The translations under genes and the position numbers were made by a program. Below the pieces are notes generated by a model, which saw only the letters and a list, made by a program, of their open reading frames with translations, ran no database searches and had not been told where the DNA came from. Positions 251 through 13,964 of a stretch of DNA of 33,776 bases are shown in pieces. Source of the stretch: Acidobacteriota bacterium (GTDB lineage Bacteria; Acidobacteriota; CAIWXX01); the NCBI GenBank assembly GCA_016191015.1, contig JACPPM010000008.1, positions 1-33,776 of the forward strand. Direction: 5' to 3'. Positions within the stretch are counted from its first letter, which is position 1, and each line of letters opens with the position of its first letter.

Positions 251-2950
251 ATGAGCCCAAACGTTGAGGGCATCATCGTGAAGAAGGACGACCCTGGTGT
301 CGACCCGAATGCGTCAGGCGATCTGGAAAGCGAGGAGTCGGGTACCATTGACTCTACGGACGTCTTGAAGACCGGCGGCGCGCTGGCGTGGGGACTGGGT
401 GCGGACGATCCCGACAGATCCACATTCCCAGAGAATGCATGGCCGCCGGGCCATCGGATTGGGCGTCTGACGATAGACTCGCTCCTCGGCACGGGCGGCA
501 TGGGGGAGGTCTACCGCGGCAAAGATGAGAAGCTCGGCCGGTCCGTGGCCGTTAAGAGACTGCGGCCGGACTGGCGCCGGATTTCGGGGGGCAGCCGGGA
601 GAGGATGCTGCGCGAGGCGCAAATTCTCTCTCAACTGCAACACCCTGGCATCTGCCAGATCTACGACCTGATCGAGAGCGATGACGCCGATGTGATCGTG
701 ATGGAGCTCGTGCGGGGCGAGACGCTCTCGGCCGCACGACCACACTTCTCTCAGCAGCAGATGCTGGTTGTCGCCGAGAAGATCGCCGACGCCGTGGCCG
801 CTGCCCATCGCCATGGAGTGATTCACCGGGATTTGAAGCCGGACAATGTGATGGTGACGCCCGAGGGGGAGGTGAAGGTCCTGGACTTCGGCGTGGCGTT
901 TTCGCTGTCAGAGCGAGCCCCGGTCATGTCCGAAGGGGGAGCCCCCGCCGAGATGGAGGCGCCGGATGGTCAGACCGGCATCGTATGGGGGGGACGGTTG
1001 ACTTCGCGCGGGATGGTCATCGGCACGCCGAGGTACATGAGTCCGGAGCAGCTCGCCGGCAGGGACTTGACGACGGCGAGCGACATCTACGCCATGGGGA
1101 TTGTGCTCCAGGAGCTCTTTACCGGGAAGTCCGCGTACAGCGATGTCGACATGTCCTCACTCCTGGGGTACGTCTCTCGAGCGGAATCGGTGAGCCCCAC
1201 GGGGCTGGACGCTGACTTGGCCCGCCTCCTGGGACAGATGAAACACGCGGAGCCGGAGGCGCGGCCGACCGCGGAGCAGGTTGTGGCGCGGCTCCGGAAG
1301 CTTCGTGGCAGGCCGGCGCGGCGCCGGTTCTTCGCCGCGGCGGCCGTAGCCTCAGCGGCACTGGTCGTCGCGACAGCGCTGGTTTCCATGAGACTCGGGC
1401 GGGAAACACCGTTGATCGCAGCCGGTCACCGCGGACGCGTCGTGTTGCTTCCGTTCGAGAACCAGACAGGCGAGACACAGCTTGCCTGGATATCGGGCGG
1501 TCTGCGCGACATGGTCGCGCAGACACTGGATGGCGTCGAGGGAATTCAGGTCGTCCCTCCGGAAAATGTGGACCGCCTCGTGACCGCGGCCGACGGTACC
1601 CGGACAGTGCGTGACGATCAAGCCCTCCAGCGTCTCGTGTCAGATCTCGGCGCCGAAGTTCTTGTAAGCACGGTTGTTCGCAAGGAAGAAGGTCTCTATG
1701 TTCTGGACTCAGGAATCATCACGAGCCGAGGCAAGGCAGGGAAGCGGATCATTCGCCAGCAGGAGATCACGAAAGCCGCCTCCGAGCTCGCGGACCGTCT
1801 CGTTAGAAGGTTGGTGCCGGCCGTCGCCTACTCAGGCCTGGAGGACCGGTTCTCGGACGACCCTACGGCCAATCGTCTCTACGCGATGGGGCTCGACACA
1901 TATCGGAGAGAAGGTGCTGAGCCTGCCAGTGAGCTGTTGCGATCCGCCCTGCGAGTCGACCCGCAGCTTCATTGGGCACGGGTCATGTTGGGCGAGCTCG
2001 CCGAGCGGCTCAGCTCCTGGGACGAAGCCAAGCGATACTTGGAGGAGGCCCAGGCGCACGCCCGGAAGACCGGAGATAGGCAGATGGCTGCCGCATGCCT
2101 GAGCCGCCTGGCGCGACTGTCCATCCATCGCAACGAGTTCGAGGAGGCCGAGCGGCTGGCGCGGGAAGCGCTGCAGATGGCACGCGAGAATGTGGATCGC
2201 GAGCGCCAGACCGAGGCGCTCACGCAGCTCGGCGATGTGGCCCGGAAGCGGGAGAAGTGGAAAGACGCCGAGGGTTACTACACTCAGGCTCTCGGTATCA
2301 GGAGGGAGCTTGGAGACCAGATCGGCGTGGCGCGGGCCATGCACAACGTCGGCGTCGCGATGTCCTTGCAGAGCGGTCGTGAGGGGGAAGCTGTGCGCGC
2401 TCTCGAGGAATCCCTCGACCTCAAGCGAAAACTCGGGATGAGTGCCTTCGAAGCGATGACGCTCAACTCCCTGGCCGTCATCGCGGTGGATAGCGGAGAA
2501 CACGACAGGGCGGAGCAGTTGTACCAGCAGGTGCTGGCCAGCTACAGGAAACAGAAGGATCTCAGCGCGATCAGCCAAACGCTCGGCAACCTCGGCGTGC
2601 TCGAGCAGAACCGCGGGCACACCAGATCCGCGGTGGCGTATTTGGAAGAATCCTGCAAGTTAGCTACGGAGATCGGCGATCAGGATTCACTCACGCTGAG
2701 CGCATTCAACCTGGCCTACCTGCTCGGCCAGCTGGGGAAGCTGAGCGAGGCCGAGCACTACCTCGAGATCGCCGACACGCGTTACAGCCTGGCGTGGGAG
2801 ACCGTCGCCATCAAGGCACGGCTGGCATGGCTGCGAGGGGATGTCAAGGGCGCTCGCGCCCACGTGGCCCAGGCCAAGAGCATGGCCGGAGAGCAATGGT
2901 CGCCTGACCTCGACAATGAAATTGTCGGGCCGAACCTCCCGCTGATCTGA
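251..2950 (+). CDS. Membrane-anchored Ser/Thr protein kinase with TolB-like and TPR domains
   Basis: Hanks-type kinase predicted to transfer phosphate from ATP to Ser/Thr of protein substrates, anchored in the inner membrane. The 899-residue form starts at the ATG at 251, chosen over an in-frame TTG at 224 because GAGG at 243-246 is well spaced before it. Visible features: an acidic N-terminal tail (1-65), glycine loop GTGGMGEV (80-87), Lys102, catalytic HRDLKPDN (192-199), DFG (212-214), a long activation segment ending in MSPEQ near 263-267, and an Ala/Val-rich membrane segment (about 360-380). The outer part has a TolB/FlgO-like region (about 394-515, with VVLLPFENQTGE) and then TPR-type helical repeats to the end. 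A convergent ECF sigma gene lies 109 bp downstream. The layout matches the kinase at 10994-13624. Substrate and signal are not visible. Confidence 0.93.
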   Translation: MSPNVEGIIVKKDDPGVDPNASGDLESEESGTIDSTDVLKTGGALAWGLGADDPDRSTFPENAWPPGHRIGRLTIDSLLGTGGMGEVYRGKDEKLGRSVAVKRLRPDWRRISGGSRERMLREAQILSQLQHPGICQIYDLIESDDADVIVMELVRGETLSAARPHFSQQQMLVVAEKIADAVAAAHRHGVIHRDLKPDNVMVTPEGEVKVLDFGVAFSLSERAPVMSEGGAPAEMEAPDGQTGIVWGGRLTSRGMVIGTPRYMSPEQLAGRDLTTASDIYAMGIVLQELFTGKSAYSDVDMSSLLGYVSRAESVSPTGLDADLARLLGQMKHAEPEARPTAEQVVARLRKLRGRPARRRFFAAAAVASAALVVATALVSMRLGRETPLIAAGHRGRVVLLPFENQTGETQLAWISGGLRDMVAQTLDGVEGIQVVPPENVDRLVTAADGTRTVRDDQALQRLVSDLGAEVLVSTVVRKEEGLYVLDSGIITSRGKAGKRIIRQQEITKAASELADRLVRRLVPAVAYSGLEDRFSDDPTANRLYAMGLDTYRREGAEPASELLRSALRVDPQLHWARVMLGELAERLSSWDEAKRYLEEAQAHARKTGDRQMAAACLSRLARLSIHRNEFEEAERLAREALQMARENVDRERQTEALTQLGDVARKREKWKDAEGYYTQALGIRRELGDQIGVARAMHNVGVAMSLQSGREGEAVRALEESLDLKRKLGMSAFEAMTLNSLAVIAVDSGEHDRAEQLYQQVLASYRKQKDLSAISQTLGNLGVLEQNRGHTRSAVAYLEESCKLATEIGDQDSLTLSAFNLAYLLGQLGKLSEAEHYLEIADTRYSLAWETVAIKARLAWLRGDVKGARAHVAQAKSMAGEQWSPDLDNEIVGPNLPLI

Positions 2951-3059
2951 GGTTCCTACTCTACGCCGACAGAAGCGGTAGAAGAGGTGACCACGGAGAA
3001 ACGGAGGTGGGCCTCAGCTTCGCATCACTCACCGCTTCGCGTAGCCCAGGGCACCGGCT

Positions 3060-3620
3060 CTACGAAGCGCTCAATTCGCGCCGGAGCATCTCACGCGCCC
3101 TGCGCCAGTCGCGTTCGACCGTCCGCGGCGAGACAGCGAGCACCTCGGCCGTCTCTTCCTCCGAGAGCCCGGCGAAATAACGGCACTCGACTACACGGAC
3201 AAGTCGCGGGTCGAGGTCCGCGAGACGGATCAGCGCTTGATCGATCGCGAGGACCGTTTCCGCGTGGCGGCGGACCGCCTGGTGTGCCTCATCCAGCACA
3301 ACTCGCTCCAACGCGCCTCCGCGCTTCTGCCGCAGCCGGGAGCGGGCGCGATCCACAAGGATCTGCCGCATGACCCGCGCTGCCAGCGCGAAAAAGTGTC
3401 CCCGGCCCTCGGCGTGCCATCTGTCCTTTCCAGCCAGCTTGATGTAAACCTCATGGACCAAATCGGCGCTACTCATCGTCTTGCTCCCGATCCGCCTGAG
3501 TTGCCGGCCCGCAAGGTGCCGCAGCTCGCCGTAGACCAGCTCGAAGAGGCCGTCCATCGCGGCGCGGTCCCCCTGTGCGTAAGCGGACAGCAGCTCCGTC
3601 ACTTTTCCTTTCGGGGTCAT
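3060..3620 (-). CDS. ECF-family RNA polymerase sigma factor (TIGR02999-like)
   Basis: A 186-residue sigma factor that would direct RNA polymerase to a specific promoter set. Region 2 covers about residues 20-95, with DLVHEVYIKL (53-62) and the ALAARVMRQILVDRAR helix. Region 4 covers about 128-183, with a helix-turn-helix in LSEEETAEVLAVSPRTVERD. The size and the YGELRHLAGRQL motif resemble the TIGR02999 group of ECF sigmas, which in Acidobacteriota and Planctomycetes often lie beside Ser/Thr kinases. That is family knowledge, not proof here. The ATG follows a GGAGG with 5-nt spacing. No anti-sigma gene is adjacent, so kinase-linked control is plausible. The neighbouring genes on the same strand are secreted propeller proteins. 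Confidence 0.93.
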   Translation of the reverse strand: MTPKGKVTELLSAYAQGDRAAMDGLFELVYGELRHLAGRQLRRIGSKTMSSADLVHEVYIKLAGKDRWHAEGRGHFFALAARVMRQILVDRARSRLRQKRGGALERVVLDEAHQAVRRHAETVLAIDQALIRLADLDPRLVRVVECRYFAGLSEEETAEVLAVSPRTVERDWRRAREMLRRELSAS

Positions 3621-3708
3621 CGCTGCCTCCGCTGTGCTCCCGACGATCTGATGCCGCGCCAGGTTACCTCATGGTCTGCCCACGATCCCCCACCCAAGCC
3701 CGAGCCTG

Positions 3709-3737
3709 ATCATGCTCTGAACGCACCCGGAGGTCAA
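3709..3737 (-). promoter_or_regulatory. Candidate sigma-70 promoter for the ECF sigma gene
   Basis: On the minus strand, TTGACC (3732-3737) is followed by a 17-bp spacer and CATGAT (3709-3714). These are 5/6 and 4/6 matches to the consensus hexamers. The site lies about 90 bp before the sigma-factor ATG, in a 212-bp gap that otherwise shows no gene. It was found by eye only. Confidence 0.35.
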
Positions 3738-3832
3738 ATGTCGAGAACATCAACTGCATGTGAGCTCCTATCGAGCGCAGCGCGGGTCAGCGCTCGAATG
3801 CTACCGCGCCGTCTCTCATGCCCCAGCGGGGT

Positions 3833-5506
3833 TCACAACTTGCCGCTGACCGTATTGTTGAGCTCGTCTCCCTCGCCGATCGTATTATCCTCATCGATGA
3901 CGGCCACGAGGTACTTGTGTTGGGCGCCCCTGGTCGCGCTCAGGTTGATCGTGGAGACTGCGCCGGCCGAAAGAGACGCTACGGTGGCGGTCTTCACGAG
4001 TGTGTCCCCGCTGCCGGGAGTGGATCCCTTGGAAAGGTACACTTTTACGACAAACGTACCGGCACTCGCCCCGCCCACCTCCGCGCAGCCCAGGGTCGCG
4101 GTCACCTTCGTGCCCGTCACCTTCAGATTCCACCACGCGCCCGTGAGATCGGGTAGATCGGACGATGGGCAGACCAAAATGCTCTTTGCCTTCGAATTCA
4201 GGATGCGGTTCGGCGCAGTCTTCCCGGTCGCAGAGGTGTCAGAGACTGTCGATTGTATCGTTGATCTTGTGGCGCGCGAATTCGATATCACGGCCTTCGA
4301 GCGTTGGACGATCGTCCCGCAGCTCGAGTCGATCTCGCCCGAGCCATCGAGCTTCACGGCGAAGCCGTTGGGCGTCCCCTCCCCAAAGGTGTCCGTGTAC
4401 CCCGCCGCGATGTAGCCACCATCGCTCGTCTGTTGCACTGCATGGAACCATTCCGTCCCGACTCCACCGTAGGTTCTCTGCCATGAGATCTTGCCGGATG
4501 TGCCCAGCTTCAGACACCAGCCAGACCTGCCCCCATCTCCGAAAGAGACGGTGTACCCCGCCACTACGAAGCCCCCATCGCTCGTCTGCTGAACAGATTC
4601 GACCGAATCGAGGTCGCTGCCACCATAGGTTTTCTGCCAAGTCGGCTTCCCGGCGCTGTCGAGCTTCAGGCACCAGGCATCTTGTAGGCCGGCGCCGAAA
4701 GACTCGGTCCGCCCCGCCAGGATGTACCCGCCGTCGCTCGTTTGCTGGACGGAATCGACCGTGTCAAAACTGGTGCCGCCATAGGCATACTGCCATGTGG
4801 GCGAGCCCGAGCTGTCCAGCTTCAGGCACCAGGCATCGAAATTCCCGGCGCCATAACCGTCGGTGTACCCGGCCGCGACATAGCCCCCGTCGCTCGTCTG
4901 CTGGATGGAGTAAAACCAATCAGTCCCGATGCCACCGAAGACCTTCTGCCAGGTGGGGTTGCCTGAGCTGTCCAGCTTCAGGCACCAGCCCTCGTCAAAT
5001 CCGACGGTGGATGAGGACGAGTACCCCGCCACGATGTATCCTCCATCGCTGGTCTGCCGAACTGAGCGAAACACATCGTTGCCACTGCCGCCATAGGTTT
5101 TCTTCCATGAGGGCTTGCCGGAGCTGTCGAGTTTCAGACACCAGCCATCGCCGAACCCGGCACCGGAGGATTCTGTGGACCCGGCGACGATGTAGCCACC
5201 ATCGCTCGTTTGCTGCGCCGAGTAGAGGTAGTCGGCGCCGCTTCCGCCGAACGTCTTCTGCCAGGTGGGGTTGCCTGAGCTGTCCAGCTTCAGACACCAG
5301 CCGTCCATCGACCCGGCGCCAGAAGATATCGTGTTCCCTGCTACGATGTATCCACCATCGCTCGTCGGGTCGACCGAATTGTAGATATCGGTCCCCGCCC
5401 CTCCCGCGGCTCTAGCCCACCCGCGCGCCGCATCGGCCGGTCGATCGGCTGACAGGCACAGGATCAATGAACCAACGACCCTCATCGCTATCGATCGAAC
5501 TTCCAT
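3833..5506 (-). CDS. Secreted seven-bladed repeat protein with CARDB-like C-terminus (paralog 1)
   Basis: A 557-residue exported protein of unknown function. The start at 5506 follows AAGGAGGAAC; a longer in-frame start at 5539 lacks this. A signal peptide covers about residues 1-27 (IAMRVVGSLILCLS, then ADA-A). Residues 30-393 are exactly seven 52-residue repeats with the pattern W-x-K-x-Y/F-GG...QTSDGGYIVAG...F-GAG...DGWCLKLDSSG. Seven such units suggest a closed beta-propeller. After a Ser/Thr-rich linker, residues about 452-557 resemble a CARDB/Ig-like domain with an AVIDEDNTIGEGDELNN ending. Blades 1-6 carry a Cys in WCLKL; blade 7 has FAVKL. A close paralog lies at 6257-7936 and an ECF sigma gene follows downstream. 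Adhesion or surface binding is possible, but no ligand or enzyme motif is visible. Confidence 0.9.
   Translation of the reverse strand: MEVRSIAMRVVGSLILCLSADRPADAARGWARAAGGAGTDIYNSVDPTSDGGYIVAGNTISSGAGSMDGWCLKLDSSGNPTWQKTFGGSGADYLYSAQQTSDGGYIVAGSTESSGAGFGDGWCLKLDSSGKPSWKKTYGGSGNDVFRSVRQTSDGGYIVAGYSSSSTVGFDEGWCLKLDSSGNPTWQKVFGGIGTDWFYSIQQTSDGGYVAAGYTDGYGAGNFDAWCLKLDSSGSPTWQYAYGGTSFDTVDSVQQTSDGGYILAGRTESFGAGLQDAWCLKLDSAGKPTWQKTYGGSDLDSVESVQQTSDGGFVVAGYTVSFGDGGRSGWCLKLGTSGKISWQRTYGGVGTEWFHAVQQTSDGGYIAAGYTDTFGEGTPNGFAVKLDGSGEIDSSCGTIVQRSKAVISNSRATRSTIQSTVSDTSATGKTAPNRILNSKAKSILVCPSSDLPDLTGAWWNLKVTGTKVTATLGCAEVGGASAGTFVVKVYLSKGSTPGSGDTLVKTATVASLSAGAVSTINLSATRGAQHKYLVAVIDEDNTIGEGDELNNTVSGKL
4328..5419 (-). 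repeat. Seven tandem 156-bp blade repeats inside the propeller gene
   Basis: The coding DNA for residues 30-393 consists of seven in-frame 156-bp units with no gaps. The segments for TSDGGYIVAG and CLKLDSSG are the best conserved. Such arrays can gain or lose units by recombination, yet this gene and its paralog both keep seven. Confidence 0.88.
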
Positions 5507-5612
5507 CCGTTCCTCCTTCGGTGCGCCCAGCAGGGCCATCTCCGGGAGCTCTGTCTCGCCTCTTGCATTCTCGCCGGGGGGCCGAACAGCCTGGCGATCT
5601 ATGGTCTGCCCC

Positions 5613-5634
5613 CCTTATGATACGACATTCCCGG
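5613..5634 (-). promoter_or_regulatory. Conserved leader block upstream of propeller paralog 1
   Basis: Reading the minus strand, this block contains CCGGGAATGTCG followed by a CATAAGG end. It closely resembles the block at 8043-8065 upstream of the paralog, and both start 107 nt before their ATG. A second conserved stretch (GGCGAGACAG, then TCCCGG and CCTGC) and the AAGGAGGAAC ribosome site also match, while the sequence between them has diverged. The block could be a promoter, operator or leader element. It has ECF-like GGAA and CGTC words, but their spacing is too short for an ordinary ECF -35/-10 pair. Confidence 0.45.
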
Positions 5635-5651
5635 AAAACACACGCGCGGCA

Positions 5652-6146
5652 CTACTGGCAACCGGCGACCTCGGGGTCCGCGGTCGCAGTCCTGGCACCA
5701 GCGAACTGCACGATTGCTATTCCGCCGGAGCTCGTACGGTTGTCGATAATCCACCATTCGCCGCTGATCGCCTCTCCACTCGCCTCCGCCGTCCCGTGGA
5801 TGGACTGGGAGAAGCCGGTGCTCGCCCCGCACATGTTCGCCACCAATGTAGAGTTTCCAACCAACCCCTCGCCCTCGAAGTCCGGTGTGGGTGTCCATTG
5901 GTCCAGAACTCCCGTGGCGCCGTCTATTTCGATGTTGAGCCGCCCGTCGTCCAGCTGAGTGATCTTCATTGTGGCCGAGGTGCTCACGGGGAGGAGCTTC
6001 TTCGATCTGGCTGCCATGTCGTAGACCAGGCCCCGGATTGTGAGAGACCAGCTGCCCTCGAGGTTCGGAGTGCCCATATCCGCCGACGTGGCGCGCGGAT
6101 AAAGAGTGGCTGCCGCGAGCAGGCATGTTGCGAGGATCTTCTTCAT
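5652..6146 (-). CDS. Small secreted protein of unknown function
   Basis: A 164-residue protein with a clear signal peptide (MKKILATCLLAAATLYPRATSA, cleaved near residue 22). The start at 6146 follows AGAAGGAG; an upstream in-frame extension to 6260 lacks a signal sequence or ribosome site. The mature part alternates hydrophobic and polar residues (LEGSWSLTIRGLVYD, ATMKITQLDDGRLNIEIDGA, IVQFAGARTA), which suggests an all-beta fold, perhaps a small lipocalin-like barrel. It has one Cys in the middle and one two residues from the C-terminus that could pair. It lies between two propeller paralogs on the same strand, 110 bp below one and 145 bp above the other, so joint expression is plausible. 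I do not recognise a named family. Confidence 0.8.
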   Translation of the reverse strand: MKKILATCLLAAATLYPRATSADMGTPNLEGSWSLTIRGLVYDMAARSKKLLPVSTSATMKITQLDDGRLNIEIDGATGVLDQWTPTPDFEGEGLVGNSTLVANMCGASTGFSQSIHGTAEASGEAISGEWWIIDNRTSSGGIAIVQFAGARTATADPEVAGCQ

Positions 6147-6256
6147 CGGTTCTTCTCCTTCTGTTGGTCGGGGCAGCGCCGCGACCGATTCTGAAAGTCT
6201 CATAAGCTGGCGTGGCGCCGGATCCCTGAGCTCGGCCCTGCGCGTCACGGCTGTTG

Positions 6257-7936
6257 TCACAGCTTCCCGATAGCGACGTTGTCGAGCTCGTCGTCCTCGG
6301 CAACCGAATTGTCGGAGTCGATGACTGCCACGATGTACTTGTGCTTGTTTCCTTTCGTCGTCTTCACTTTGAAGCTGGAGCTGCCCCCGGCTGGAAGCGG
6401 TCCGACCGTGATGGTTTCTACGAGCGTGGCCTTCTTGCCGGCGGTCGGCTTTTTTGCAAGGTATACTTTTACCACGAATTGTCCCGCATCCGCCGAGCCG
6501 GCGTCAACGCAGCTGAGCGTCGCCGTGACCCGAGAACCGGTCACCTTCAGATTCGACCATGTGCCGGTGAGGTCGGCGGAGGCGGGCGATGAGGCACAGA
6601 TCAGGGCCATCGTTGCGCTGGAATCGGTGGCACCGCCGCCCGATGGCATGCCGACAACGAATGTGTTCGATTCGATCGCGACGGCAGCGGGGCCGGCAAC
6701 GCCAGAATTCGATATCACCGCCGCAGAGCTCTGGACGAGTGTCCCGCAGCTAGAGTCGATATCGCCGCCGCCGCTGTCCAGCTTCAGACACCAGGCATCC
6801 ATTGATCCGGCGCCGAACGAGGACGATTCCCCGGCCATGATGGAGCCGCCATCGCCTGTCTGCGCGGCAGCCCTGAGCCCGTCGTCGCCGGCGTTGCCGT
6901 AGGTCTTCTGCCACGAGGGGTTGCCTGAGCTGTCGAGTTTCAGGCACCAGCCATCGGATAGGCCCGCGCCGAAGGAATTAGTGACCCCCGTCACGATGTA
7001 GCCGCCATCGCTCGCTTGGGCGACTGACGAAAAGATATCGATGGCGCTGCCACCATAGATCTTCTGCCACGAGGGGTTGCCTGAGGCGTCGAGCTTCAGG
7101 CACCATCCGTCGTATATGCCGGCGCCGAAGGAATGTGTGTATCCGGCGAGGACGTATCCTCCATCCCTCGTCTGCGCGACAGAGAGGCCGACGTCATCGA
7201 GCGCACCGCCATAGGTTTTTTGCCACGCCAGGGAGCCTGAGCCGTCGAGTTTGACGCACCAGACGTCGCGCCCCCCCGCGCCGAAGGACTTGGTGTAGCC
7301 GGCGACCACGCACCCGCCATCGCTCGTTTGCTGGACGGAGACGAACACATCGTCTTCGCCGAGGCCGAAGGTCTTCTGCCACGAGGTATTGCCTGAACCG
7401 TCCAGCCTCAAACACCAGGCATCGGCCGACCCGAACCCGGAAGACATGGTGTATCCCGCGACCACGTATCCGCCATCACTCATCTGGTGGACGCAGCCTA
7501 ACCAGTCAGAGCCGCCGCCACCGTAGGTTTTGCGCCATGTGGTATTACCTGCACTGTCGAGCTTCAGGCACCATCCATCCCCCGCACCGGCCCCGAAGGA
7601 GGACGTGAAGCCCACTGCGATGTACCCACCGTCGCTCGTTTGTCGGACCGAGTTGAAGTAATCTGAGCCGCTGCCGCCGTATGTCTTCTGCCAAACGGGA
7701 TTGCCTGCGCTGTCAAGCTTCACGCACCATGCATCGGCTGACCCTGCGCCAAACGAGTAGGTGAACCCCGCCATGATGCAGCCCCCGTCGCTCGTCTGAT
7801 CGACCGACACCCACATGTCACTCGCGGACCCAATGGCGGCCTTCGCCCACCTGCTCCCCGCCTCGGCCGGTCGATCGGCGGTCACGCACAGAATCATCGT
7901 ACTCCCCACACACATCGCAATTGACCGAAAGTTCAT
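6257..7936 (-). CDS. Secreted seven-bladed repeat protein with CARDB-like C-terminus (paralog 2)
   Basis: A 559-residue paralog of 3833-5506 with the same order: signal peptide (IAMCVGSTMILCVTADRPAEA), seven 52-residue blades (about 30-393), Ser/Ala linker, and a CARDB-like domain ending in KYIVAVIDSDNSVAEDDELDN. The start at 7936 follows AAGGAGGAAC; a longer in-frame start at 8002 lacks a signal peptide. All seven blades keep the Cys in WC(L/V)(K/R)L. The signal peptides, the first Trp at residue 30 and the leader sequences of both genes correspond, so the pair arose by duplication with later divergence. The gene is divergent from the Asp-box protein at 8209. The function is unknown; extracellular binding is an inference from the propeller-like architecture. 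Confidence 0.9.
   Translation of the reverse strand: MNFRSIAMCVGSTMILCVTADRPAEAGSRWAKAAIGSASDMWVSVDQTSDGGCIMAGFTYSFGAGSADAWCVKLDSAGNPVWQKTYGGSGSDYFNSVRQTSDGGYIAVGFTSSFGAGAGDGWCLKLDSAGNTTWRKTYGGGGSDWLGCVHQMSDGGYVVAGYTMSSGFGSADAWCLRLDGSGNTSWQKTFGLGEDDVFVSVQQTSDGGCVVAGYTKSFGAGGRDVWCVKLDGSGSLAWQKTYGGALDDVGLSVAQTRDGGYVLAGYTHSFGAGIYDGWCLKLDASGNPSWQKIYGGSAIDIFSSVAQASDGGYIVTGVTNSFGAGLSDGWCLKLDSSGNPSWQKTYGNAGDDGLRAAAQTGDGGSIMAGESSSFGAGSMDAWCLKLDSGGGDIDSSCGTLVQSSAAVISNSGVAGPAAVAIESNTFVVGMPSGGGATDSSATMALICASSPASADLTGTWSNLKVTGSRVTATLSCVDAGSADAGQFVVKVYLAKKPTAGKKATLVETITVGPLPAGGSSSFKVKTTKGNKHKYIVAVIDSDNSVAEDDELDNVAIGKL
6758..7849 (-). repeat. Seven tandem 156-bp blade repeats (paralog 2)
   Basis: Seven uninterrupted 156-bp units encode residues 30-393. 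Blade-to-blade similarity is highest around the codons for SDGGYxxAG and WCLKLDSSGN. Unit number and phase match the array at 4328-5419. Confidence 0.88.
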
Positions 7937-8042
7937 CAGTTCCTCCTTTGTTGCGGCCGGCAGGATCCCCCCGGGATACTGTCTCGCCACCAGTGTGCCC
8001 ACCCTCTGTCCGGGCCCCTCTCGGGTCCCGAGGTCCTACTCA

Positions 8043-8065
8043 CCCTATGGAACGACGTTTCCGGG
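8043..8065 (-). promoter_or_regulatory. Conserved leader block upstream of propeller paralog 2
   Basis: On the minus strand this reads CCCGGAAACGTCG followed by a CATAGGG end, matching the block at 5613-5634 and starting at the same 107-nt distance from the ATG. Here it also contains a partial palindrome, GGAA-acgtcg-TTCC, which would suit a dimeric regulator. It lies in the 272-bp divergent gap before the gene at 8209, so it could affect both directions. Confidence 0.45.
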
Positions 8066-8070
8066 CAAGA

Positions 8071-8088
8071 CCCGACATCAGAGTCGGG
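8071..8088. repeat. Short hairpin in divergent intergenic region
   Basis: CCCGAC (8071-8076) and GTCGGG (8083-8088) form a 6-bp stem with a 6-nt loop. It sits beside the conserved block at 8043-8065, between two divergent secreted-protein genes. It may be an operator half or a chance GC-rich palindrome. Confidence 0.35.
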
Positions 8089-8208
8089 ATTTGCCGAATC
8101 CCTGGGAGTCGTTTGACACGAACAGGCGATCGCGTCAGACTACGGATGAAGATCCTGGGCGGAGGCCGCGGACGCCTTGCGGTCCTGGCTGATTCCAGGA
8201 GGTTTCCC

Positions 8209-10632
8209 ATGAAGAGCCGAATCGGGATTGCCGGCATACTCTTTGTGACCGGCGCGCTGCATGCGGGCGTCAACAGATGGACGTCCAACGGACCGTATGG
8301 CGGACTGTTCGGAGGATTTGCTTTTCATCCGACTGACAGCAATCTGATCTTCGCGACGGGCGGAAACTCCCTTTACCGAAGCACGAATGGGGGTTCAGAC
8401 TGGGAACGCCTCAGTATCGGCGGGGCAGCCGGATTTCCCGGAAATGCCGTTGTCAGGATCCATCCTCGTAACCCTGGCTTGATTCTGGCCGCAAGTTCCA
8501 GCGTTTTCGCGAGCACCGACTATGGTGTGACCTGGCGGGAGATCTTTAGACCCGAATTCGACGATTGGGACGCGTTCTACGACATGGAGTTCGATCCTTC
8601 TGACCCGAAGACCCTCTTCGCGGTCAGCTACCGCAACGGAGTCTTCAAGAGCACGGACACGGGGCAGTCATGGCTCAAGAAGAACAAGGGGCTCACGATC
8701 GAGCCGGTGCCTGGCTTCATTGAGATTCCTCAGATCGAGGTGAGCCCCACTGACGGGAAGACGATTTACGCACTCCTTGCGAGCCGAAAAGCCTACAAGT
8801 CCGTCGATGGAGGGGAGACGTGGCAATATCTCCCCGGGCTCATTCTCGATGAAGAAGAACACGTCCTCGCCATCGACCCGAGCACTCCTCTTGTCATGTA
8901 CGCCGGTGGAGGCGATGGAATTCTGAGGAGCGAGGATGGCGGTCAGAACTGGACCGATCTCGTCTGCGGGTGCCGGCCCTTCAGCCTGGCGATCGACCCC
9001 CGCGAGACGCAGACTCTTTACATCGCTCAATCCACTTCGATGAAGAGCACTGATGGAGGCCGCACCTGGCAGGACATGAACGTTGATCCGAACACAACTG
9101 TCGGAGTCGCCGTCCATCCCAGGAAGCCCAATGTCGTGTTCATTGGCGGGTTTGGGCAGGGGGTGTTCAGGTCCGTGAATCGCGGGAAGACGTGGACCCA
9201 GGTCAACGATGGGCTCGACAATCAGATCGTGGAGCGGCTCGCTGCATCCCCCCCTGACCTGAGACACGTCTACGCGTCGACCGGAAAATTACTCTACGAA
9301 AGTAGTAATGGCGGTACCACCTGGACGCTGGGTGCGCTGTCACAGGCGCCGGATCCGGTCCAATCGGTGCATGACATTCAGGTTCACCCCGAAAACCCCC
9401 GGCGTGTCACCGCCGCTGTGAGCGATCCCGATCGCGCTCCCGTCGCAATCAGTACCGACGCCGGAGAGAGCTGGAAGTTCATCTCGCCTGCTCCGAATCC
9501 AGGTTGGGTACCGAGAATCGCGCTGGATCCCTCCGATGACATGATCATCTATGTCGATGGCCAGTACGATAATGGATCTGAGCTGAGGTGGCGCTTCATG
9601 AAGAGTGTGGATGGAGGAGACACTTGGCAGTATGCGGACCGTGGACTTCCGAACCGGCGAGTCGACGTCGTGACCGTTGATCCGAGCGACGGAGACGTCG
9701 TCTATATTGGAGCCGAAGACGGGAGGATTCTCAAGAGCACCGACGGCGGCTCCAAATGGAAGAGGACCGGCAAGGGACCCCAGGGGGCTGGCCTCACTGA
9801 TATCGCTGTGGACCCGGCCGAACCCGACACTGTGTACGCCTCCCATTTCTCAGGCATCTTCCAGAGCGCCGACGGCGGGAAGTCGTGGAAGCAGCGGGCT
9901 CCATTTGGAGGCGGGTTCGTCACGCCTGACCCCGGCAATCCGCAGACGGTGCTCGCGGGAGGCTGGGGAGGGGTGTACCTCAGCACCGACCGTGGTCTCA
10001 ATTGGAGCCTGTTCGACCCGACCGGCCTGCCCCCCTGCTTCGTCAACGACCTTCTTGTCGATCAGGCCAACCGGGACAGATTCACGATCGCGACTTCCCG
10101 CGGCGTCTTCTCGTACACGCGAAAGACGTCCTCCGGCAGCCCTGTGATCGAGCAGGTCATCCCGGCCGCGGGGAAAGCCGGCGACACCGTGACGATCAAC
10201 GGCAGTGGATATGGACAACTGCAGAGCACGAGCAAGGTTCTTTTCGGCTCATCGGAGGCCGGCACCGCTCAGTCCTGGACCGACACCAGCATCAGGATCG
10301 CCGTTCCTGTTGGTGTGCGCAGCGGGTCGGTGACTGTCGCCGTGGGATCCAAGTCCAGCAATCCGTTCGAGTTTATCGTCCTGCCTGCCGCGGGGAACAT
10401 CGAACCAACATCGGGCCCGGCGGCCGGGGGCACGCGTGTGACCCTCATCGCCCCGTCCAGTGTTACCGGTTCGGGATTCAGTGTGTTCTTCGGATCGGCC
10501 GTTGCAACGGACGTGCGATTCGTCGAGCCCAACATCATCACCTGCACCTCACCCGCCGGCTCGGGAACCATAGAGGTGAGGATCACGACAACTCTGGCAT
10601 CGACGGATGTCGGATCCTTCACCTACCAGTAG
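8209..10632 (+). CDS. Exported Asp-box (VPS10/BNR-like) propeller protein with two TIG-like domains
   Basis: An 807-residue secreted protein. The start at 8209 follows AGGAGG (8197-8202) with 6-nt spacing and begins a signal peptide (MKSRIGIAGILFVTGALHA). The open frame continues upstream to 7921 but crosses the divergent leader. Residues about 20-640 contain many Asp-box turns, such as STNGGSDW, STDTGQSW, SVDGGETW, SEDGGQNW, STDGGRTW, STDGGSKW and SADGGKSW. These alternate with VDPSDGDVVYIG-type strands as in sortilin/VPS10-like and BNR propellers. Two IPT/TIG-like Ig domains follow (about 645-724 and 729-806). The related families include glycosidases and binding proteins, but I see no catalytic set, so binding or a structural role on the cell surface is the safer call. 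It is divergent from propeller paralog 2. Confidence 0.9.
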   Translation: MKSRIGIAGILFVTGALHAGVNRWTSNGPYGGLFGGFAFHPTDSNLIFATGGNSLYRSTNGGSDWERLSIGGAAGFPGNAVVRIHPRNPGLILAASSSVFASTDYGVTWREIFRPEFDDWDAFYDMEFDPSDPKTLFAVSYRNGVFKSTDTGQSWLKKNKGLTIEPVPGFIEIPQIEVSPTDGKTIYALLASRKAYKSVDGGETWQYLPGLILDEEEHVLAIDPSTPLVMYAGGGDGILRSEDGGQNWTDLVCGCRPFSLAIDPRETQTLYIAQSTSMKSTDGGRTWQDMNVDPNTTVGVAVHPRKPNVVFIGGFGQGVFRSVNRGKTWTQVNDGLDNQIVERLAASPPDLRHVYASTGKLLYESSNGGTTWTLGALSQAPDPVQSVHDIQVHPENPRRVTAAVSDPDRAPVAISTDAGESWKFISPAPNPGWVPRIALDPSDDMIIYVDGQYDNGSELRWRFMKSVDGGDTWQYADRGLPNRRVDVVTVDPSDGDVVYIGAEDGRILKSTDGGSKWKRTGKGPQGAGLTDIAVDPAEPDTVYASHFSGIFQSADGGKSWKQRAPFGGGFVTPDPGNPQTVLAGGWGGVYLSTDRGLNWSLFDPTGLPPCFVNDLLVDQANRDRFTIATSRGVFSYTRKTSSGSPVIEQVIPAAGKAGDTVTINGSGYGQLQSTSKVLFGSSEAGTAQSWTDTSIRIAVPVGVRSGSVTVAVGSKSSNPFEFIVLPAAGNIEPTSGPAAGGTRVTLIAPSSVTGSGFSVFFGSAVATDVRFVEPNIITCTSPAGSGTIEVRITTTLASTDVGSFTYQ

Positions 10633-10639
10633 GTCCCCG

Positions 10640-10957
10640 CTACCGCCGGATGATCACCTCGGGGGACGACTCGCCCAGGCAAAAGTCGCGGGCCTCTTCG
10701 GAGTAAGCGGCGTACGGGAAATGACCGGTCTCGGCTCTCTCCGGGATCGTGATGGACGCGGTTCTCCCCGGCGCAACGTCCTTTCGCTCCGTCCCGAATG
10801 CACTCCGATCCGGGAAGAAGATCTGTACGCGCCCGCCGGTCAGGTTGACGAAATGCACGTCCTGGCCGGGGCTCGCCGCAACGTACGCCGGGCGCACCCG
10901 GTAGCCGCTGGCAGTCCTCAGCACGAAAACCTCTGTTGCTTCTCTGTCAGATCCCAT
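10640..10957 (-). CDS. Small cupredoxin-like protein, metal ligands incomplete
   Basis: A 105-residue protein with a beta-rich pattern (VRPAYVAASPGQDVHFVNLTGG, then VAPGRTASITIPERAE, a C93 region and SPEVIIRR) that suggests a cupredoxin fold. His35, His79 and Cys93 are present, but the usual C-x(n)-H-x(n)-M end is not, so type-1 copper binding is doubtful. No signal peptide is visible from the ATG at 10957, which has a GGAAGGAG about 8 nt upstream. The gene ends 7 bp from the convergent Asp-box gene and lies 36 bp downstream of the kinase gene on the same strand, so it may be co-transcribed with that kinase. The fold call is tentative. Confidence 0.7.
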   Translation of the reverse strand: MGSDREATEVFVLRTASGYRVRPAYVAASPGQDVHFVNLTGGRVQIFFPDRSAFGTERKDVAPGRTASITIPERAETGHFPYAAYSEEARDFCLGESSPEVIIRR

Positions 10958-10993
10958 CTCTTCTTTTCTCCTTCCAGTCGACGTGAAGTGTGA

Positions 10994-13624
10994 CTACGGT
11001 TCCCGCACGGTAGCGAATCGCGGGTCTGCGCGGAGTCTCGCCAGATCCGGCTCGTGCTCAACCTCCTCCAACGAGTAGCCGGCGTGGAGCGCCTTGCCGA
11101 GAAGATCGAGCGCCTTCGCGCGATCGCCCAGCATCTCGTACACGGTCGCCGCGCGGAACATCATGTCGGCATCCCCGCGGGCCAACTCGAGCGCCTCCGC
11201 CGCCCGCGCTCGAGCGGCGACTGCATCTCCGAGAACTGCGTGGCAATCGGCCAGACGGATCAGCAACCCGGGATCACTCGGGTTCACCTTCAGCTCGGCC
11301 TCAGCCATCTCCGCCGCACGCCTGTAAGCTGCCGGCGCTTTCTCCCCCTGCCCCGGGGCCAGACGGTATGCCGCGCCGAGGTTCCGCCAGACGCGATAGT
11401 CGCCGTCGTCGATCTCGACGGCGCGCTCGAGTGTCCTCGCGGCCTCCGCGTACCTGCCACGGAAAAACTGGACCGTGGCGAGGCTGGAAGCAGCATCCGC
11501 CGTCGGCATGATGCTGAGAGACCGCTTCAGCATCGCTTCTGCTTCTTCGTTGCGGCCCATCAGGTGATACAGCCCGCCGAGGTTGTTATAGCCGCGGACG
11601 TTGACCGGCGCCAGCTCGATGACCTTGCGAAACTGGGCTTCGGCCTCTGAGTAGCGGGCTTGAATCAGATAGAAAACCCCGAGCTGGTTGTAGCCCGCCC
11701 AGTATGATGGGCGCCACCGGATCGCTTTCAGATATGTCGCCTCGGCCTCTCGGTTTTTGCCCAGGGTCTCATACGCGTACGCCAGCTCCCGCATCGCATC
11801 CGCATTCGCCGGGTCCAGCTCGAGCGCGCGATCGAAGTCCTTCCGCGCGTCCTCGGGATGACCAGTGCCCGCGTGAACGACGCCCAGAGTGACATACACA
11901 GGAGCCAGAAGGTCGTTCAGCTCGACGGCGCGCCGGCAGCTTCGCTGGGCCATCCCCACCGACTCAGGGCTCTTCTCCAGCTCGTATCTCCGCCAGAACG
12001 CCTCCCCGAGCGCGGCGTAGGCGAGCGCGTATCGCGGATCGAGTGACGTTGCCTGCTGAAGGACCTTGATGGCCATGTCCAGACTTTCCTTGTCCTCATA
12101 GTGCTGCAGATAGCCTCGGCCCTTCACGTACAATTCGAAGGCCCCGGCCTCGGTCGTCCCGCCCGCTTCCATGAGGCGTCGAGCATGCGGATCGAGCTCC
12201 AAGGCTAGCATTTGCACGATCTGATCGACGACGCCGTCTTGCAATAACGAGACATCGGTGACCGGAGCGTCGAGAGCGATGGCACGGAGCTGTCGCAAGC
12301 TCAGCGCGTCGACCAGGTTCGCCGTCAGGCGGATTCGATCGTTGACACGCAGCACGCTGCCCGTGATGACGATGGTCACGCCGAAAACCCGGCGCGCCGC
12401 CGCGGCGCTGGCGATGTCCGCCTGCCGCACCTCGCTGGCCGGCACGACCCAGAGCGAGCCGTGAAACTGCTCGAGCTCCGTTAGCTTGCTCGTCAGCACC
12501 TCGACCAGCCCTTCCGAGAATGCGCGGCTTGCCGGGTCATCCCCCGCGCCGGCGAAACTGAGCACGGCGATGTGCTTCTCCTCGGGGACGGCCCGCAGAG
12601 ACAGCCAGTCTGCCACGCGGTGCCGAACGGGTGGCGAGAGGATGGCGAGCAGGATGACCGCAGCCAGAGCGGCGCCGACGGCCAGAAACCGCCGCACGCG
12701 CGATCCGAGCGCGGGCTTCGCCGAGACCATTGGGCCGCCTGCTTCCAGACGATCGGCCACGGCGCGGAGATCACGGGCGAGCTCCTCGCACGACGGATAC
12801 CTGTCCGCGGGGTCCTTCGCAAGGCATCGATTGATCGTGTTCACGAGTAGCTCAGGGCAATCGGGAACCCACTCGCGAACTCGAACGGGGGGCTCATTGC
12901 AAATCGCCCTTGTCGTCTCGATCCAGTTCCCGCGGTCGAAGGCGTTCCGCCCGGTCGTCATTTCGTATAGAAGGGAGCCCAGAGAAAACTGGTCCGAGCG
13001 GTGATCGATCGTGTCGCCCCTCGCCTGTTCCGGAGACATGTACTTCACTGTCCCGACCAAAGCCCCAGGACCGGTCTTCGGCCCGGAGAGATCGTCTCCG
13101 GTGGTCGAGAGATCCTCCTTCACCACGGTCTCAGCCTCGGTGTCGAGGGGAGGAGGACTGAACTTGGCTAGCCCGAAGTCGAGGATCTTCGCGAGTCTGT
13201 CGCCGGAGATCATGATGTTTTCCGGTTTCAGATCACGGTGGACGATGCCGGCGGCGTGGGCCTTGGCGAGACCGTCGGCGATTTGAGCGCCGAGGTCGAG
13301 TGTCCGTCGCAGAGGCAGAGATTGCTTCGACATGATCTCTCTCAGCGTCTGGCCCTGCACGAGCTCCATCACGATGTACGGCTTCCCGTCGGCCTCGCCG
13401 ATGTCGTGGACGGTGATGATGTTCGGGTGGTTGAGGGCGGAAGCCGAGCGGGCTTCGAGCAGGAAACGAGCCAGGCGCTCCGGGTCGGATGTGGACTTCT
13501 CGCCCAGGAACTTGATCGCGACCTCTCGCCGGAGCCGCGTGTCCCTCGCCCGATAGACTTCCCCCATCCCGCCGCCCCCGAGCTTTTGCAGGATCTGGTA
13601 GTGGGCGATCTGCTTGCCGTTCAT
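10994..13624 (-). CDS. Membrane-anchored Ser/Thr protein kinase with TolB-like and TPR domains (second copy)
   Basis: A Hanks-type kinase of 876 residues from the ATG at 13624. An in-frame GTG at 13630 would add two residues, and neither start has a clear ribosome site. From the GTG the landmarks are: loop GGGGMGEV (18-25), Lys40, HRDLKPEN (131-138), DFG (151-153), YMSPEQ (197-202), and a membrane helix near 314-332 (FLAVGAALAAVILLAILS). A TolB/FlgO-like domain covers about 353-480 (HIAVLSFAGAGDDPASRAFSEG), and TPR motifs cover about 500-860 (for example YVTLGVVHAGTGHPEDARKDFDRALELDP). The membrane helix separates the cytoplasmic kinase from a probably periplasmic sensor or scaffold. It shares its architecture with the kinase at 251-2950, though the sequences differ widely. 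The cupredoxin-like gene follows 36 bp downstream. Confidence 0.94.
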   Translation of the reverse strand: MNGKQIAHYQILQKLGGGGMGEVYRARDTRLRREVAIKFLGEKSTSDPERLARFLLEARSASALNHPNIITVHDIGEADGKPYIVMELVQGQTLREIMSKQSLPLRRTLDLGAQIADGLAKAHAAGIVHRDLKPENIMISGDRLAKILDFGLAKFSPPPLDTEAETVVKEDLSTTGDDLSGPKTGPGALVGTVKYMSPEQARGDTIDHRSDQFSLGSLLYEMTTGRNAFDRGNWIETTRAICNEPPVRVREWVPDCPELLVNTINRCLAKDPADRYPSCEELARDLRAVADRLEAGGPMVSAKPALGSRVRRFLAVGAALAAVILLAILSPPVRHRVADWLSLRAVPEEKHIAVLSFAGAGDDPASRAFSEGLVEVLTSKLTELEQFHGSLWVVPASEVRQADIASAAAARRVFGVTIVITGSVLRVNDRIRLTANLVDALSLRQLRAIALDAPVTDVSLLQDGVVDQIVQMLALELDPHARRLMEAGGTTEAGAFELYVKGRGYLQHYEDKESLDMAIKVLQQATSLDPRYALAYAALGEAFWRRYELEKSPESVGMAQRSCRRAVELNDLLAPVYVTLGVVHAGTGHPEDARKDFDRALELDPANADAMRELAYAYETLGKNREAEATYLKAIRWRPSYWAGYNQLGVFYLIQARYSEAEAQFRKVIELAPVNVRGYNNLGGLYHLMGRNEEAEAMLKRSLSIMPTADAASSLATVQFFRGRYAEAARTLERAVEIDDGDYRVWRNLGAAYRLAPGQGEKAPAAYRRAAEMAEAELKVNPSDPGLLIRLADCHAVLGDAVAARARAAEALELARGDADMMFRAATVYEMLGDRAKALDLLGKALHAGYSLEEVEHEPDLARLRADPRFATVREP

Positions 13625-13740
13625 GGCCACTGCGCCGGCGCGAGAACGATCAGACTGCGGTTGAAGATCGCCCTGGGAAGGGAGTAATCATGACTGGAAT
13701 ATGTTTGGTGGGCGGTGAAATGTCAACGGTCCTGTGGGGA

Positions 13741-13964
13741 GCGGCCAGGGCTGCGGCAAGGTCGAGGCGCCGACTCGGGCGAGGCCGTTCCGTGCGAAAC
13801 CGCAGAGGGCGCAGATTTCCGCGCAGATTACGCAGATTCTTCCAGCATTCAACCGACGAGCAACTTGCTCCTCACTCTCGGGTCGGCGCGAAGCAATCGG
13901 CGACATCTGCGAGTCAATCTGTGAAATCTGCGGTTTCCGGGACTTTGCCGCAGCCTTGGCTCAC
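13741..13964. mobile_element. MITE-like non-coding element with terminal inverted repeats (copy A)
   Basis: The ends GCCAGGGCTGCGGCAAGGTC (13744-13763) and GACTTTGCCGCAGCCTTGGC (13941-13960) are inverted repeats matching at 18 of 20 positions. The interior holds several GCAGATT words on both strands (13801-13840 and 13901-13935) around a core at about 13836-13900, which recurs inverted at 26498-26570. The same architecture recurs at 33561-33776. No transposase is encoded, and short reading frames across it are low-complexity translations of the repeat. The right end overlaps the pyrF stop codon. It fills most of the 336-bp gap between the kinase and pyrF. Confidence 0.65.

Follow-up and report, generated by a model that had tools for sequence, protein, structure and literature searches.

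Secreted beta-propeller genes beside a kinase-linked ECF sigma factor with an altered sigma2.2 motif in an Acidobacteriota genome

In the genome studied here, an ECF sigma factor of a class linked to Ser/Thr protein kinases (STPKs) is encoded directly downstream of genes for secreted beta-propellers, and it carries Ala and Asp where its relatives usually have Thr or Ser followed by Ala. The reading favoured here, to which we give a probability of about 0.45, is that a lineage-specific propeller operon stands beside an ECF43-like sigma factor that would no longer need phosphorylation in region sigma2.2, the propellers being its likely targets. The window, that is the whole stretch of DNA that was analysed (33,776 nucleotides), is one entire contig (C66) of a draft genome of 6.43 Mb in 349 contigs. 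From left to right, it carries the genes of a first kinase (PK1), the ECF sigma factor, propeller 2, a small exported protein, propeller 1, an Asp-box/TIG protein and a second kinase (PK2), followed on the right by pyrF and then by an outer-membrane TonB-like protein. The features considered are:

251 to 2950, plus strand: PK1, Ser/Thr kinase with one transmembrane segment and C-terminal TPR (Pfam Pkinase 160 bits, TPR_12)
3060 to 3620, minus strand: ECF sigma factor, TIGR02999/PF07638, with sigma2.2 motif SSAD-LVHE at residues 50-57
3709 to 3737, minus strand: weak sigma70-like promoter candidate 5' of the sigma gene, TTGACC-17-CATGAT
3833 to 5506, minus strand: propeller 2, exported seven-repeat propeller with CARDB (39 bits); reading frame open from 5539
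5609 to 5634, minus strand: propeller 2 copy of a block common to both propellers, about 102 bp before the ATG, 19/26 identical
5652 to 6146, minus strand: small exported protein, 164 aa, orphan; likely start ATG at 6146
6257 to 7936, minus strand: propeller 1, exported seven-blade propeller with CARDB (Pfam); reading frame open from 8002
8039 to 8064, minus strand: propeller 1 copy of the common block, upstream of the gene
8209 to 10632, plus strand: Asp-box/sortilin-like exported propeller with two TIG domains (Pfam Sortilin-Vps10 144.6 bits, TIG 53 bits)
10994 to 13630, minus strand: PK2, Ser/Thr kinase with one transmembrane segment and C-terminal TPR; likely start ATG at 13624
13698 to 13726, minus strand: sigma70-like promoter candidate of PK2, TTGACA-17-CATATT

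The gene set, its order and its coordinates agree with those of the earlier note, as does the presence of two kinases of the same layout around the sigma factor and the exported proteins. The Sec-like N termini of the latter were recognised by inspection only. PK1 (plus strand) is convergent with the sigma gene (minus strand), from which it is separated by 110 bp. The minus strand is common to the genes of propeller 1, the small protein, propeller 2 and the sigma factor. The Asp-box gene (plus strand) is divergent from propeller 1 and PK2 (minus strand) is convergent with the Asp-box gene. Because gene orientations differ, the locus is not a single operon but comprises four transcription units or more. 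A single conserved operon or module is ruled out by gene orientation together with its absence from other genomes. Rfam gave no match in the window.

Profile searches place the sigma factor in the kinase-linked ECF class TIGR02999/PF07638 (Sig-70_X6 / Sigma70_ECF), with 198.1 bits for TIGR02999 (cut-off 126.15) and 170.5 bits for PF07638 (cut-off 21.1). The label ECF43 is taken from papers only, and the family placement rests on TIGR02999/PF07638, not on the Casas-Pastor profiles. No anti-sigma domain was found by Pfam in ten frames between 224 and 17594, which agrees with the initial description of an ECF sigma factor without a neighbouring anti-sigma. That description also held that no named system has this gene set. 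For the sigma-kinase half, this is wrong, since ECF43 and five other ECF groups figure as STPK-regulated in the lists of a review (PMC8999054). In the ECF43 pairs EcfP-PknT of Vibrio parahaemolyticus and EcfK-PknS of Xanthomonas citri, as in the window, there is no neighbouring anti-sigma, the sigma family adjoins a Hanks-type kinase and the acidic motif of sigma2.2 is altered. The window sigma differs from these pairs in having no co-directional kinase, in having Ala at the acceptor Thr with Asp next to it, and in having exported propellers upstream. According to a paper on these systems, the partner kinase of ECF43 sigma factors phosphorylates a Thr of their sigma2.2 motif (QTTA), thereby supplying the charge that DxxD gives other sigma factors (PMC13147305). 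By the same account, the phospho-ablative variant EcfK T51A of X. citri still works (PMC13147305), so that other sites can suffice.

The residues of the window sigma were compared over 148 sigma loci, comprising eight from the genome itself, one from a genome of the same family (G001), 60 from the phylum and 79 from named genomes. The 60 phylum loci are the best 60 matches outside the genome itself in a longer list (149 genomes); being top matches, they bias the sample to near relatives. The named-genome loci are the best 80 of at least 591, reduced to 79 since one (L233) gave no sigma reading frame, and many of them come from Acidobacteriota records. Among the matches listed, residue 52 is Ser or Thr in 138 of the 148 homologues. 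The window sigma passes the cut-offs of its family but is one of the 10/148 listed that lack Ser or Thr at this position. Where Thr/Ser and then Ala are usual, it carries A52 and D53, the latter being as in ordinary ECF sigma factors, and it alone (1/148 of the matches listed) combines a residue other than Ser or Thr at 52 with an acidic residue at 53. In the linker, residue 108 is Ser or Thr in 84 of the 148 homologues listed and Val in the window sigma; by its position, it would correspond to the linker phosphosite of the paper mentioned above. With A52 and V108, the window sigma would thus be devoid of an acceptor at both places of phosphorylation reported for ECF43. The pairing of A52 with D53 argues against the kinase switch that had been proposed, as far as the sigma2.2 site is concerned. 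Two serines, S50 and S51, flank the usual acceptor site. Of the idea of a kinase-gated sigma factor, what holds is the nature of the family, in which an STPK takes the place of an anti-sigma; the window protein itself, with its Ala at the acceptor position and its adjacent Asp, does not fit at that site.

The genome contains 20 PF07638 matches, eight of which are strong (at least 143 bits). In all seven other strong copies, a co-directional kinase starts at the sigma gene or shortly beyond it (at the C110 locus it runs off the contig), and the window sigma is the only one of the eight without a co-directional downstream kinase. Among the 148 loci listed, the kinase is downstream and co-directional in 104, convergent in eight including the window, upstream and co-directional in nine and upstream and opposed in three; 16 have no kinase within 1 kb and eight lie at a contig edge. 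Contig edges aside, 140 of the listed family sigmas can be assessed, and 124 of them have a kinase within 1 kb. Ser or Thr is missing from position 52 at four of the 104 listed loci that have the kinase downstream and co-directional (L215, L162, L166 and L197), which indicates that loss of the acceptor alone does not imply loss of the kinase. A dependence of acceptor loss on kinase position was considered and rejected: among the matches listed, loss occurs in 4/36 loci with any unusual kinase arrangement versus 4/104 with the usual one (p 0.20, not significant), and the lower value for opposed kinases (3/11 versus 4/113 of the matches listed, p 0.015) was obtained post hoc and is uncorrected for relatedness. 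Separately, two loci with opposed kinases, L267 and L271, have no Ser or Thr at the acceptor position and a Glu at the first position of the motif (ETGV and EPNA); they are possible independent cases of acceptor loss.

The favoured reading can be put in terms of the following steps. The ancestral state would most likely have been a sigma gene followed by its kinase, as in the seven other strong copies of the genome. At the window locus, this co-directional kinase is missing, and the acceptor Thr is replaced by Ala, with an Asp next to it at the place where ordinary ECF sigma factors have the last Asp of DxxD/DAED. From this change of two residues in sigma2.2, we infer that binding to the RNA polymerase core would occur without phosphorylation there, the sigma factor being released from its kinase. 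Its control would then be exerted mainly through its own expression or through other sites (S50/S51). The genes of propeller 1, the small protein and propeller 2, which share the strand of the sigma gene and immediately precede it, would form an operon, and these nearby propellers would be the most plausible targets of the sigma factor. PK1 and PK2 would be separate units and may act on other proteins.

A broader evolutionary claim is that a sigma factor from a kinase-gated class would have returned to kinase independence, through the change of two sigma2.2 residues and the loss of the co-directional kinase, and would now serve a secreted-propeller operon. Such a full course of events is better regarded as unlikely. 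If true, it would provide a natural counterpart of phosphomimetic experiments, and ideas on the origin and reversion of phosphorylation-gated sigma factors could be tested on it. The replacement of the DxxD charge by sigma2.2 phosphorylation has so far been supported by a few engineered or single-species cases, in the parts of the literature at hand. A natural member devoid of the acceptor and provided with an Asp, set against the 138 relatives that keep the acceptor among the matches listed, offers a direct comparison.

A first alternative, close to the model of the earlier note, would make PK1 the genuine cognate kinase, only inverted in position; PK1 would phosphorylate the sigma factor at S50, S51 or another site, and the sigma factor would then drive the propellers. 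Convergent kinases exist at other loci, and six of the seven others among the matches listed keep Ser or Thr at position 52; PK1 could thus be a rearranged true partner. The frequency of a kinase within 1 kb of the family sigmas (124/140 assessable, eight convergent, among the matches listed), the position of S50 and S51 on either side of the usual site, and the propeller neighbour seen at three of the eight own sigma loci would fit this view. However, the usual acceptor is lost and an Asp is present. Moreover, PK1 stands on a long branch with no supported place in a tree of 96 kinase domains, and none of its seven relatives, found in five other genomes (E at most 1e-70, search of 148 genomes), has a family sigma nearby in the stretches retrieved, which include short contigs. 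For these two reasons, the assignment of PK1 to a sigma-linked kinase clade was abandoned, and a role as cognate partner appears rather improbable. Both kinases have intact motifs (GxGGxG, VA(V/I)K, HRDLKPxN, DFG and SPEQ) and one hydrophobic segment each (residues 359-383 in PK1, 311-336 in PK2), with TPR repeats after it. The own-genome kinase nearest to PK2 in the tree is L110. As the genome encodes 71 kinases in 6.43 Mb, finding another one within about 12 kb is unremarkable.

The association of propellers with kinases was then considered at the scale of the genome, using 31 propeller genes in 27 clusters, out of about 30 clusters (C228, C290 and C18 were left out). Six of the 27 clusters adjoin an STPK or a sigma-STPK gene, where about 0.8-0.95 would be expected (binomial p about 0.0001-0.0003); the statistic is rough, as it takes 71 kinases and 8 sigmas and assumes a gene number of 4,500-5,600. 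These clusters are that of the window (C66), C328 and C30, which have a sigma gene, and C332, C121 and C273, which have only a kinase. A propeller adjoins three of the eight own family sigma genes, for about 0.1 expected. Sigma-kinase and propeller-kinase adjacencies both exceed chance in this genome. The putative functional link of propellers to kinases or sigma factors is not conserved. Among the matches listed, no propeller lies near the sigma gene at any of the 140 loci of other genomes (G001, 60 phylum loci, 79 named-genome loci). In G001, of the same family, the sigma-kinase pair is without propeller, and a single propeller gene out of five stands divergent to a kinase gene; among the propeller loci retrieved from another seven genomes, none adjoins a kinase. 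Conservation of the neighbourhood in relatives, by which the earlier note had proposed to judge its module, was therefore not found, be it for propellers near sigma genes (0/140), for the small protein (1/149 genomes) or for sigma genes near the PK1 relatives (0/7). The proposed module is partly supported by the recurrence of propellers next to STPK or sigma-STPK genes in 6/27 clusters of this genome and next to three of its eight family sigma genes. A common origin of the propeller-linked sigmas was also considered and is unsupported, the own sigmas being scattered in the tree (7 changes over 8 rows, low support).

In this context, it may be asked whether the arrangement is mostly coincidental, resulting from the large expansion of two kinds of gene, kinases (71) and secreted propellers (31 genes seen), which high-copy dispersed repeats would have shuffled. 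The lack of conservation in other genomes goes in this direction, as do the dispersed repeats that adjoin both window kinases and the distribution of the propeller-adjacent kinases over different clades of the tree, which argues against one duplicated block. The excess of kinase-adjacent clusters (6/27 against about 0.8-0.95) and the occurrence, in the same-family genome, of one propeller divergent from a kinase are not readily accounted for in this way, and chance as the main cause is doubtful. To return to a functional link between propellers and regulators, as in the favoured reading, their repeated adjacency hints at the targets of such sigma factors or kinases in a poorly studied lineage. 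A literature search found no paper combining beta-propeller, Acidobacteria, sigma factor and protein kinase.

Two other propeller loci deserve mention. At L007 (C332; 2972-5362, minus strand), the protein start presumably resembles that of SBBP-type propellers, and the gene is divergent from another sigma-kinase pair. At L065 (C273; 223-15675), the kinase is preceded by an ECF-like gene (2535-3116, recognised by inspection), and two Asp-box proteins and one CARDB protein are encoded in the next 13 kb.

The AlphaFold (AF2) model of propeller 1 (pLDDT 83) shows 28 strands over residues 31-387, corresponding to seven four-stranded blades, and a C-terminal beta domain that coincides with the CARDB match. 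Propeller 2 shares 57% identity with propeller 1, and the description of two seven-blade proteins is thereby upheld. Like the delta-60 and SBBP-type propellers (TIGR02608; LipL53 family of Leptospira, NF047494), the window propellers have repeats of about 50 residues, are exported and have seven blades. They differ in scoring below the curated cut-offs (for delta-60 TIGR02608, 55.8 bits for propeller 2 and 31.2 bits for the other, cut-off 76.5), in their C-terminal CARDB domain, and in a Cys found in the motif WCLKLD of most blades. This Cys is present in both window propellers, and many paralogues have another residue. The best solved structure for propeller 1 is the propeller domain of CylK, which has the same fold, with 29% identity over 362 aligned residues (Z 49.3, rmsd 1.7). 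Many propeller chains give Z values of about 31-33. CylK catalysis needs Arg105, contributed by an N-terminal Ca-binding domain (PMC8916777). That the propellers would be enzymes of the CylK kind, in a small biosynthetic cluster, can be set aside as very improbable: among solved structures, CylK comes closest both in fold and in sequence (phmmer 1.7e-19), but the window propellers begin at the propeller after a signal-like segment, without the Ca-binding domain that supplies Arg105, and the Pfam matches of the surrounding genes tested give no sign of a biosynthetic cluster.

For the small exported protein, the beta fold announced earlier was not confirmed, the model being unusable (pLDDT 35.5). 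No relative was found in the 148 other genomes of the phylum sample (1/149, its own). The longer, correct frame has no NCBIfam match; Pfam also gave none, for a different frame of the stretch. The Asp-box/TIG protein was correctly described, since an Asp-box/sortilin region and two TIG domains were recovered by Pfam; it has many partial paralogues in its own genome. Its NCBIfam match to 'F510_1955 family glycosylhydrolase' (254 bits, above cut-off) arises from nine repeat stretches, and is an annotation name rather than evidence for an enzyme.

Concerning promoters, three sigma70-like sites were found in about 14 kb, for 2.5 expected from shuffles, and the promoter candidates are thus weak. 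A 26-base block with 19/26 matches precedes both window propellers at equal distance. It was not found at other propellers, the window pair being the only one in 820 kb of own-genome loci. As 24% of the coding 26-mers of duplicated propellers reach at least 20/26 identity, the block is no more alike than much duplicated coding DNA; it is a candidate promoter only, and may be a relic of duplication. A promoter common to the propellers was accordingly rejected, and there is no promoter evidence tying the propellers to the window sigma.

Two families of dispersed elements are represented in the window. Positions 13745-13960, just upstream of PK2, hold an element of about 216 bp, the ends of which are inverted (GGCTGCGGCAA / TTGCCGCAGCC). 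Forty copies were scored, the window's included, out of 381 first-look candidates, with 96-100% identity, and the element is absent from the nine other genomes searched, that of the same family included; it has the appearance of a MITE-like family with a very high copy number. A second element, of about 210 bp, occupies positions 1-212 and has a 31-base near-palindrome at 179-209. Its 40 scored copies in the genome, the window's included, are 82-100% identical, and many of them are located at contig ends. The C328 contig, which carries another propeller-sigma-kinase locus, also begins with this element.
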